Shown piece by piece: positions 18,229-23,645 of a DNA stretch of 64,000 bases. Position numbers and translations under genes: made by a program. The notes below the pieces were generated by a model. It was not told the DNA's origin and searched no databases. It saw nothing but the letters and a program-made list of their open reading frames with translations. How positions within the stretch are numbered: the first letter of the stretch is position 1; the number at the start of each line of letters is the position of its first letter. The DNA comes from Arcobacter sp. F2176 (lineage in GTDB: Bacteria > Campylobacterota > Campylobacteria > Campylobacterales > Arcobacteraceae), in contig NZ_PDJV01000002.1 of NCBI RefSeq assembly GCF_004116465.1, forward strand, positions 62,001-126,000, in the 5' to 3' direction.

Positions 18229-18852
18229 ATGATGAAATTAGCTGTATTTGATTTTGATTCAACTTTGATGGATGGAGAGACTATTGATTTTTTAGCAAAA
18301 CCATTAGGTCTTGAAGAAAAAGTTGCAAAAATCACAGAAGAAGCTATGTCAGGAAGACTAGACTTCTTTGAATCTCTTATTGAAAGAGTAGCTTTATTAA
18401 AAGGATTGGAAAATTCTTTGGCTGTGGATATTTGTAAAAATCTACCACTTATGCCAGGTGCAATGGAAACAGTTGCAAAACTAAAAGAAAAAGGTTACAA
18501 AGTTGTATGTTTTTCAGGTGGCTTTAGAATAGGAACAACTCCTGCAAAAGAAAAACTTGGGCTTGATGCAGACTTTTCAAACATCTTACACCACAAAAAT
18601 GGAATTCTAACTGGACTTGTTGGTGGAGATATGATGTTTGGCTTTTCTAAAGGTGATATGATTCAAAGAGTTCAAGCAATGCTAGGAGTTTCTAAAGAGA
18701 ATACACTAGTAGCAGGTGATGGAGCAAATGATGTGTCGATGTTTCCATATGCAGACAAAAGAGTAGCTTTTTGTGCAAAAGATATTTTGAAAAAAGAGGC
18801 AAATATTATTGTTGATACAAAAGATTTGACACAAATCTTGAAGCATATCTAA
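18229..18852 (+). CDS. serB: Phosphoserine phosphatase SerB
   Basis: A 207-residue HAD hydrolase releasing serine from O-phosphoserine. The catalytic motif is DFDSTLMD at residues 8-15 (nucleophile Asp8), followed by GRLDFFESLIERVALLKG, SGGF, and GDGANDVSM. It lacks the N-terminal ACT domain of longer SerB proteins, as usual in this phylum. ATG ATG starts both fit after AGGG; the first is used here. The end of the gene contains a TTGACA (18826-18831) that may start transcription of the leader and tal. Confidence 0.93.
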   Translation: MMKLAVFDFDSTLMDGETIDFLAKPLGLEEKVAKITEEAMSGRLDFFESLIERVALLKGLENSLAVDICKNLPLMPGAMETVAKLKEKGYKVVCFSGGFRIGTTPAKEKLGLDADFSNILHHKNGILTGLVGGDMMFGFSKGDMIQRVQAMLGVSKENTLVAGDGANDVSMFPYADKRVAFCAKDILKKEANIIVDTKDLTQILKHI

Positions 18853-18857
18853 AAAGC

Positions 18858-18974
18858 ATTTTCTCAAAGAGAGTACAAGCACAGGATTCTTTTAATAGGA
18901 ATTTATTTCCTATGCTAAAAAGAAGACATAAAAGAAAAGGTCCCTATTAATAGGGACTATTAAAAGGAATAAAT
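18858..18974 (+). promoter_or_regulatory. Candidate structured leader RNA of tal (copy A of a two-copy family)
   Basis: This leader fills the whole space between serB and tal. It starts with ATTTTCTCAAAGAGA, then CAAGCACA, and shows three hairpins: TTCTC-AAA-GAGAG (18862-18874 region), ATAGGAA-loop-TTCCTAT (18895-18913) flanked by CTTTT and AAAAAG that can extend the stem, and GTCCCTA-TTAA-TAGGGAC (18940-18957). The AAGGA ribosome site follows at 18964-18968. Box to start codon is exactly 120 bases, as in copy B before gatC (23607-23488, minus). I count about 79 of 120 identical bases without gaps, and the second and third stems keep pairing while their bases differ. No known riboswitch class is recognised. 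Confidence 0.7.
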
Positions 18975-19967
18975 ATGAGTTTAAAAGAAGATATAAATTT
19001 TTCGTTATGGTGTGATTTTATTGAAAGAGATTTTTTAGAAAATCAGTTTCAAGACTTGGTAAAAGATGAAGTTATTCAAGGTGCTACATCAAATCCTGCT
19101 ATTTTTGCATCATCAATTTCAAACTCTGTTGCTTATAAACAACAACTAGGAATTTTACAAGTAAATACAGCTAAGACTATTTATGAAGAAGTAGCTATGA
19201 CTGATATTAAAAGAGCAGCTGAAATATTAGAACCTATGAATAAAAATGATAGTGATGATGGATTTATTTCACTAGAAGTTGACCCAACACTTAGTGATGA
19301 TGCAGAGGGCACTATTGAAGAGGGAATTAGACTTTATAAAACAATTGCATATGATAATGTAATGATTAAAGTTCCTGCAACAAAAGCTGGATTCAAAGCT
19401 ATGGAAGAGTTGTCTTCACAAGGTATAAATGTAAATGCAACACTAATCTTTTCACCAGAACAAGCTATTAGCTGTGCAAATGCTTTAAATAGAGGTATGG
19501 AAAAATCAATTACAGAATCAAAAGCTGTTATTTCTATTTTTGTATCTAGATTTGATAGATTGTGTGACAATAGATTTGGGGCAAAAGGTATAGAAAAAGC
19601 CAAATTAGGTATTATAAATGCTGTAAAATGTTATCACGAAATAAACAAATTCCATAATGATAACATTAGAACACTTTTTGCTAGTACTGGTGTAAAAGGT
19701 GATGAATTACCATCTACTTATTATGTGGATAATTTACTTTATCCAAACAGTGTAAATACTGCTCCTTTGGCTACTATTGAAGATTATGTACAAAGTGGTA
19801 GCACTGAACCTAGTAAAATAATTAGTGAAGATGAGTGTGATGAGTTTTTCAAAATGCTTACAAAACATGGTATTGATACAAATGAGATTTATGAGACATT
19901 ATTAAGTGATGGATTAGAAGCATTTAAAGTATCATTTGAAGAACTTTTATCAAAGTTAAAAGTATAA
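18975..19967 (+). CDS. tal: Transaldolase
   Basis: A 330-residue TIM-barrel enzyme of the non-oxidative pentose phosphate pathway, in the larger tal subfamily. Family motifs are IQGATSNPAIFASSI near the start, VMIKVPATKAG with the Schiff-base Lys at about residue 132, GINVNATLIFSPEQA, and FVSRFDRLCD. It starts directly after the structured leader at 18858 and is followed by the DAHP synthase 27 bases later, a sensible pair because both handle erythrose 4-phosphate. Confidence 0.95.
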   Translation: MSLKEDINFSLWCDFIERDFLENQFQDLVKDEVIQGATSNPAIFASSISNSVAYKQQLGILQVNTAKTIYEEVAMTDIKRAAEILEPMNKNDSDDGFISLEVDPTLSDDAEGTIEEGIRLYKTIAYDNVMIKVPATKAGFKAMEELSSQGINVNATLIFSPEQAISCANALNRGMEKSITESKAVISIFVSRFDRLCDNRFGAKGIEKAKLGIINAVKCYHEINKFHNDNIRTLFASTGVKGDELPSTYYVDNLLYPNSVNTAPLATIEDYVQSGSTEPSKIISEDECDEFFKMLTKHGIDTNEIYETLLSDGLEAFKVSFEELLSKLKV

Positions 19968-23199: not shown

Positions 23200-23490
23200 C
23201 TATTCTATGATTTTTGGAACTATAAAGTATCCATTTTCACTTTTTGGAGCATGTGAAAGTATATGTTTTGACATCTCTAAATCTTGACTAGCAACATCTT
23301 CTCTAAGTGGTGTTCCACCTTCAACTGTTGTGAATGTTGCATCGATATGGCTTACATCAATTTCATTTAAATTTTCAACGAAATTAATAATATCACCTAG
23401 TTCATTTTTTAGTGATTCTCTTTTATTTTCATCAATTTCCAAACTAGAAAGTTTTGCTAATTTATCAATTGTATTATCATCAATAGTCAT
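23200..23490 (-). CDS. gatC: Aspartyl/glutamyl-tRNA amidotransferase subunit C
   Basis: A 96-residue GatC: IDKLAKLSSLEIDENKRESL at the start, the middle NLNEIDVSHIDATFTTVEGG, and the closing REDVA and FIVPKIIE are family traits. GatC braces the GatA-GatB complex that converts Glu-tRNA(Gln) and Asp-tRNA(Asn). gatA and gatB are not nearby, as often seen in this phylum. The gene carries a 120-base structured leader (23491-23607) ending in a hairpin with a T-tail just before its ribosome site GAGG. Confidence 0.94.
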   Translation of the reverse strand: MTIDDNTIDKLAKLSSLEIDENKRESLKNELGDIINFVENLNEIDVSHIDATFTTVEGGTPLREDVASQDLEMSKHILSHAPKSENGYFIVPKIIE

Positions 23491-23607
23491 TTCTTTTCCT
23501 CTAAAAGGTGCCCTTTAAAAGGGCACCTGAAATATTTGTCTGCTTTTTAACAGGATTTATAAAAATCCTTAAAAGTAGTTTTGTGCTTGCATTCTCTTTG
23601 AGAAAAT
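23491..23607 (-). promoter_or_regulatory. Candidate structured leader RNA of gatC (copy B of a two-copy family)
   Basis: Read on the minus strand, it opens with ATTTTCTCAAAGAGA then TGCAAGCACA, the same box as copy A before tal. Hairpins: TTCTC-AAA-GAGAA; AGGATTT-TTAT-AAATCCT flanked by CTTTTA and TAAAAAG; and GGTGCCC-TTTTAAA-GGGCACC (23508-23529 region) followed by TTTT, which looks like an intrinsic terminator only about 6 bases before the gatC ribosome site. The second and third stems differ in sequence from copy A but still pair. Because gatC has no other promoter room, read-through or alternative folding would decide its expression; a short separate RNA is the alternative reading. Confidence 0.7.
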
Positions 23608-23613
23608 TCTAAG

Positions 23614-23633
23614 AAGAGCAAGCAGTTGCTCTT
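23614..23633 (-). promoter_or_regulatory. Upstream hairpin of the gatC leader with a competing pairing
   Basis: AAGAGCAA and TTGCTCTT (8-base stem, loop CTGC on the minus strand) form a hairpin before the conserved box. Its TGCTTGC (23624-23618) can instead pair with GCAAGCA (23590-23584) inside the box region. The two folds exclude each other, as expected of a switch, although this part is missing from copy A. Confidence 0.45.
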
Positions 23634-23645
23634 TTAATTTTTTGG

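Follow-up and report, generated by a model that had tools for sequence, protein, structure and literature searches.

In the 64,000-nucleotide stretch of the Arcobacter sp. F2176 genome analyzed here (the window), two genes on opposite strands are preceded by closely similar sequences of 120 nucleotides. These genes are tal, encoding transaldolase (18975..19967, + strand; an ORF matching Pfam TAL_FSA), and gatC, encoding Glu-tRNA(Gln) amidotransferase subunit C (23200..23490, - strand; an ORF matching Pfam GatC). The locus therefore raises the question of what the repeated sequence is and what it does in front of two such different genes. The original prediction proposed either a cis-regulatory RNA or a mobile leader cassette; a recurring structured leader is indeed present, and both of these readings still stand. 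We show that the two sequences are members of a family of structured intercistronic leaders of about 120 nt. The family is new, being covered by no Rfam model, and the near-identical block at the start of both sequences is not a part of the leader but a separate 23-bp insert nested within it.

Two leader copies in the window

Aligned without gaps, positions 18858-18977 (+) and 23607-23488 (-) are identical at 79 of 120 positions, precisely the figure that had been estimated, and the runner-up ungapped placement in the whole window, on either strand, yields 59 identities. The box pattern TTTCTCAAAGAGANNRCAAGCACA has two sites in the window, the tal and gatC copies, with none expected from shuffled sequences. 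The identity is uneven (24/27 in the opening positions, 55/93 in the remainder) because the first block is the separate insert, found at 18863-18885 and 23602-23580. The gapless match is real, and the two copies owe their equal length in part to the chance presence of the insert. A covariance model of the whole leader (R2, which like the alignment A5 represents the leader with inserts removed) gave the tal and gatC copies as its sole matches in the 64-kb window. Scores, with E-values that are rough, were 63.6 bits and E 4.3e-11 (cmsearch) for the whole match before tal (18851..18972, +) and 51.9 bits and E 1.2e-8 for that before gatC, insert included (23493..23637, -).

The hairpins initially named were confirmed in both copies, but the extent of the leader had been drawn too short: the gatC copy reaches further 5' and holds an extra hairpin, AGAGCAACTGCTTGCTCT, within 23635-23612. 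This hairpin 0 (23612..23635, -; covarying helix 1 of A5) appears terminator-like to a terminator scan when seen on the + strand. It is gone from the tal leader, where the insert CTCAAAGAGAGTACAAGCACAGG (18863..18885, +), a pattern with copies throughout the phylum, follows TTTT and stands in its place. The gatC insert, CTCAAAGAGAATGCAAGCACAAA, occupies 23580..23602 (-), and the gatC leader of the sister species G002 (L008) is likewise filled. Hairpin 1 spans 18887..18924 (+) before tal, comprising covarying helices 2 and 3 of A5 with inner arms ATAGGAA (18895-18901) and TTCCTAT (18907-18913). Before gatC it spans 23540..23578 (-), also placed by A5 covariation, with inner arms AGGATTT (23569-23563) and AAATCCT (23558-23552). 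Hairpin 2, in the form that leaves the Shine-Dalgarno (SD) sequence open, pairs GTCCCTA with TAGGGAC before tal (18940..18957, +), the most stable local fold, and GGTGCCC with GGGCACC before gatC (23507..23527, -), as indicated by pair counts and folds. The tal SD sequence, AAAAGGA (18962..18968, +), doubles as the 3' arm of an alternative, SD-masking helix (helix 4 of A5); the SD sequence of gatC, recognized from sequence and folds, is GAGGA (23497..23501, -).

The most conserved block is a mobile insert

The best-conserved block, originally taken as the heart of the RNA, proved instead to be a mobile 23-bp insert that is missing from most leaders. Its consensus is CTC[AG][AC]AGAGAGTGCAAGCACA(AG). 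Unfilled leaders read CTTTAGGATTTGCTTCTTT and filled ones CTTTAGGATTT[23 bp]GCTTCTTT; in the window's genome the filled leaders include those of tal, gatC and cysD, all with the insertion site TTT^GCTTC. Across 175 distinct sites, TTT precedes the insert in 96-98% and no base is duplicated. Within the insert, positions 14 and 17 are linked (CG in 153 and TA in 7 of the 175), and two small palindromes are found.

The 24-base box occurs in six copies in the window's genome, in eight and three in two congeners, and in 53 of 104 Arcobacteraceae genomes overall, at 1-13 copies each. Scanning 84,980 species genomes for exact matches yielded 118 stretches; the titles listed belong almost entirely to Campylobacterota (Sulfurovum, Sulfurimonas, Arcobacter, Campylobacter and others), and two archaeal titles may reflect misbinning or chance. 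Leaders account for a minority of the copies; the majority occupy transposase genes (IS256-like and others), the loops of palindromic repeats and other intergenic repeats. For instance, a repeat loop in genome G102 reads CCAGATTT[insert]ATCTGG when filled and CCAGATTTATCTGG when empty. This genome (L095-L103) carries 13 inserts, many of them in the loop of a REP-like palindrome, GGAACGCCAGATTTATCTGG...CCCAGTC-GACTGGGGTTCC. A second, longer intergenic repeat, GCAGGGCAGAAAAGA...AATAAGYGAGGG...TTACTTTT-hairpin...AGAGGTTTACCTCTTCAAGAGA, has at least two fixed insert sites and was seen in congeners and in the window's genome (L009, L011, L013-L015, L017, L003, L004).

Filled and empty versions of the same site are also found among leaders. 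The folA leader is filled in G001 and empty in G002, with near-identical flanks, and the tal leader carries the insert in the window's genome but lacks it in both sister species, although at tal hairpin 0 has been lost as well. Many genes broken by the insert regain their reading frame, or gain a longer one, once the 23 bases are taken out. A single IS256-like gene (L310) holds four inserts in both orientations, while an insert-free relative (L309) has an open frame of 421 codons. Removal at the RNA level, as a bypassing element or intron, was rejected because of the two orientations within one gene, the other lesions in the transposase genes and the intact insert-free relative. In G014, two 1377-bp IS256-like copies (L308 and L313) are 99% identical and share the same three inserts; either the element multiplied after its transposase gene broke, or the segment was copied.

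These distributions bear on whether the box could be a functional RNA motif of the tal and gatC leaders. It is the most conserved block, with two small palindromes and linked positions, yet most leaders, the tal leaders of the sister species among them, do without it, and most of its copies reside elsewhere, in both orientations within transposase genes. We regard such a role as scarcely credible, and the box as a defining part of the leader is already refuted. With respect to what moves the insert, a Y1 transposase (REP/RAYT, IS200/IS605) was rejected: it is present in 20/53 genomes with inserts and 16/51 without, which is no association (Fisher p = 0.54), and it is absent from the insert-carrying G000, G014, G007 and G025. 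Reverse transcriptase, considered as the mark of a group II intron or a related element, was found in 23/53 genomes with inserts and 14/51 without (p = 0.10).

Covariation supports the predicted leader structure

With inserts removed, the predicted leader consists of hairpin 0, the linker CUUUAGNNUUUG, hairpin 1, an A-rich spacer and the SD hairpin. The linker between hairpins 0 and 1 is invariant, CTTTAG-NN-TTTG. Three hairpins covary, according to RNAalifold and pair counts. The A5 structure comprises 29 pairs, which are 89.9% paired; 22 of them show double changes, with 186 cells changed on both sides. None of 500 shuffles was as good, and slid versions fell far below, so that the covariation claimed for the leader stems finds strong support.

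Since relatedness can inflate covariation counts, arms were also permuted among 33 dissimilar copies (<88% similar). For none of the three covarying elements did any of 2000 permutations reach the observed pairing (0/2000 each): z was 6.1 for hairpin 0, 8.3 for hairpin 1 and 5.6 for the SD-masking helix. The SD-masking arms, helix 4 of A5 with double changes in 6/9 pairs, were paired at 0.883 in these non-redundant copies versus 0.741 when permuted. The SD-open helix, GGUCCC/GGGACC, was below permutation significance (z 1.7) because it varies little: its one variable pair, the third, is CG in 22 copies, TA in 9, TG in 3 and GC in 1. The hairpin-2 loop of L026, L038 and L254 contains longer foreign sequences (e.g. 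...GGTATCCTTAAAAAATCATTTTTTAAGGCACC...), a further dispersed element.

Distribution, genomic position and target genes

At the gathering score, Rfam 15 gives no match in the window, and the leaders obtain only weak, chance-level matches at permissive thresholds. Our first covariance model, built solely from the part of the leader after the insert, found 19, 12 and 20 copies in the genus's three genomes. An R2-type model of the whole leader extended the family to at least 76 of 104 Arcobacteraceae genomes, with up to 25 copies each and E-values, again rough, down to 4e-23; owing to the filters applied, these census figures are lower bounds. Further copies in relatives, which the original prediction implied, are thus numerous both in the genus and in the family. 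We found no literature report on such repeats in Arcobacter. The genome of Arcobacter sp. L has been analyzed for novel intergenic motifs, most of the remaining ones being left unnamed in the accessible portion of that report (PMC6429828), and a partial overlap of our leaders with these motifs is possible.

The position of the leader is remarkably uniform. Every one of the 68 copies read in context has the sense orientation, and in 65 of them an open frame starts between -3 and +9 nt from the end of the model, bearing out the constant distance noted from the two copies alone; two of the three others have an ATG at that place in a short frame. On the upstream side, 59/67 leaders follow a stop-free frame of 150 codons or more on the same strand that ends no further than 200 nt away, at a median of about 0 nt. 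Taken together, the two boundaries imply that the leader usually fills the gap between co-directional genes. The leader thereby shows the features that characterize cis-regulatory structured RNAs in general, a conserved covarying structure combined with a fixed position relative to the start codon.

The genes that follow are diverse. They encode transaldolase, GatC, HypA, rubredoxin, tRNA thiouridylase (mnmA), dihydrofolate reductase (folA), IspH/LytB, a PAPS-reductase-domain protein (read as CysD), ferredoxin, peroxiredoxin, glutamine amidotransferase, an RND pump, a CobW/HypB GTPase, DnaJ, threonine synthase (thrC), a HIT protein, GMP synthase (guaA), P-II, urease alpha (ureC) and a nitrogenase-type protein. 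That the controlled genes share no pathway, as first remarked for tal and gatC, holds across the targets of the family; no pathway or transport function is common to them, as a metabolite riboswitch would require. The same genes keep their leader across species and, in the case of tal, rubredoxin and ispH, across genera. Clusters of at least four leaders within a few kb were observed in G000 (contig C5, 107361-119278) and G043 (contig C16, 83454-130657), in apparent nitrogen-fixation gene clusters (ferredoxin, NifT-like and nitrogenase-type proteins).

The leader core in other Campylobacterales

A core model (R3) limited to hairpin 0, the linker and hairpin 1 matches in other Campylobacterales, where the SD hairpin is missing. 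In G145 and G158 the core forms dispersed repeats; in G242, G164 and G256 it lies directly 5' of 16S rRNA, and it also occurs antisense, adjoining the 3' end of 23S. Cores with the CTTTAGNNTTTG linker were noted by 16S/23S in some genera (L341, L345, L354, L369, L389). In the 16S leader of the window's own genome, no core was found. At L346 (G246) the core abuts the ATG, and the 3' arm of hairpin 1, AAAAGGAG, is itself the SD sequence, masked by GCTCCTTT; this is a second way of joining the core to a ribosome site.

The rRNA-flanking copies, along with a boxA-like TTCTTTA, invite the explanation that the leader is a boxA-type element at which CTTTAG/TTCTTTAA binds NusB/S10 and thereby controls the downstream gene. 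The rRNA leaders that we read, however, possess another boxA-like stretch more than 100 nt upstream of 16S, also in genomes without the core, which means that the core is not simply boxA. In the leaders themselves, the bases resembling boxA belong to the stem of hairpin 1, where they undergo compensatory changes (GCTTCTTT/AAAAGAAG to GCTACTTT/AAAAGTAG). We therefore judge a Nus-factor element to be very improbable.

A weightier alternative is that the leader is primarily a mobile palindromic DNA repeat, whose hairpins serve transposition or recombination and whose copies survive by supplying an SD sequence. Its many dispersed copies would fit, as would the tandem pairs in G045 and G081, the core held in common with dispersed and rRNA-flanking repeats elsewhere, and the invasion of the hairpin-2 loop of L026 and L254 by other sequences. 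Copies of a mobile repeat would, however, be expected in antisense and between convergent genes too, and 0/68 copies were so placed. Moreover, tal, rubredoxin, ispH, folA and hypA retain their leader across species and genera, and both helices of the SD hairpin covary. On this evidence we consider a primarily mobile repeat rather unlikely, but the leader may have been derived from a mobile repeat later put to use before genes.

A proposed translational switch

The explanation that we favor, and think probable without being confident of it, is that the leader controls how the downstream cistron is translated by masking and unmasking its SD sequence, the insert being a separate passenger. The last hairpin is predicted to adopt two forms: GGUCCC/GGGACC, with the SD sequence open, and UCC-UUUUAAAAU/AUUUUAAAAGGA, with the SD sequence masked. 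The two helices are mutually exclusive, as the CCC arm is common to both. The open hairpin, whose 3' arm is transcribed before the SD sequence, can be the first to fold, and the longer A/U masking helix could displace it later if no ribosomes load. Timing, the loading of ribosomes or the binding of a factor would then govern initiation. Hairpins 0 and 1 with their invariant linker would shield this ribosome site from the gene upstream and could be recognized by a common factor, whereas the 23-bp insert would be tolerated in non-coding DNA outside the switch.

Calculated mean energies of the two forms are close (-8.9 open, -9.4 masked). The tal leader favors the open form by about 4 kcal/mol (P 0.98), and gatC is mixed (0.31-0.45); given the preference of tal, these two copies may be poor, worn switches. 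In simple folds, SD openness averaged 0.32 for leaders versus 0.42 for ordinary genes of the window, a difference that is not significant (p = 0.12). The response predicted for an RNA thermometer is weak: in silico, the mean probability of an open SD sequence is 0.25 at 4 C and 0.40 at 42 C, and shuffled controls rise alike. A CsrA site was dismissed, the GGA in the linker not being conserved (AGGA, AGAA, AGAG, AGGG).

The leader could instead act on the transcript, weakly as a terminator/antiterminator or as a place where an RNase separates the two cistrons. In many copies AUUUU comes directly after a GC-rich hairpin 2, the U run would be paired in the alternative helix, and the intercistronic position suits processing; yet the run has few U residues, sense-strand scans at tal and gatC called nothing resembling a terminator, and the alternative helix is anchored on the SD sequence in most copies. 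Action on the transcript thus seems improbable to us. Extending the preferred translational switch to the whole family, we tentatively envisage an Arcobacteraceae regulon of some 10-25 unrelated genes with bistable leaders answering to one trans signal, into which the 23-bp element has repeatedly landed; this is a possibility that we would not yet bet on.

Comparison with known systems

A leader with a ribosome site and two competing covarying helices before about 20 unrelated genes points to a layer of post-transcriptional control in Arcobacteraceae, where such control is little known. Among described systems, the leader resembles SD-masking leaders (translational riboswitches, ribosomal-protein leaders and RNA thermometers) in its exclusive helices, one of them over the SD sequence, but differs in serving some 10-25 unrelated genes per genome. 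The TAACTGA repeats of Beggiatoaceae (PMC4679880) are likewise dispersed immediately before start codons, for the most part in forward orientation and with no pattern in gene function, and a translational role has been proposed for them; they are, however, heptamer direct repeats that mostly replace the SD sequence, whereas the leader is structured, about 120 nt long and contains one. The boxA-mediated Nus-factor control of E. coli suhB (PMC5725501) offers a parallel in placing an rRNA-leader-type element before protein genes, but in our leaders there is no GYTCTTTAANA unpaired within 50 nt of the start, the corresponding stretch being variable and paired.

For the insert, REP/REPIN sequences with RAYT transposases (PMC3116915) are similarly short, hairpin-bearing dispersed elements, but neither the window's genome nor several insert-rich genomes contain a Y1 transposase. 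The closest described kind is the cyanobacterial small dispersed repeats, or SDRs (Elhai et al. 2008, cited in PMC3116915, PMC2884548 and PMC4390886), which these sources describe as dispersed and thought to be mobile; SDR5, according to PMC4390886, inserts precisely between nt 3 and 4 of HIP1. The insert behaves in the same manner: its 23 bp fall within the 21-27 bp of such repeats, it has many dispersed copies, and it shows precise filled and empty sites in folA, transposase frames and repeat loops. Both are dispersed elements of about 20-25 bp that insert precisely and nest in other repeats, although the organisms are unrelated, the target here is TTT^R, and the likeness is one of description. 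The insert would accordingly provide a second clean system for the precise insertion of sequences far below the size of a transposon end, with its mobility testable owing to the filled and empty sites, the fixed target after TTT and the phylum-restricted spread. If this holds true, the 23-bp insert would rank among the smallest known mobile DNA elements.
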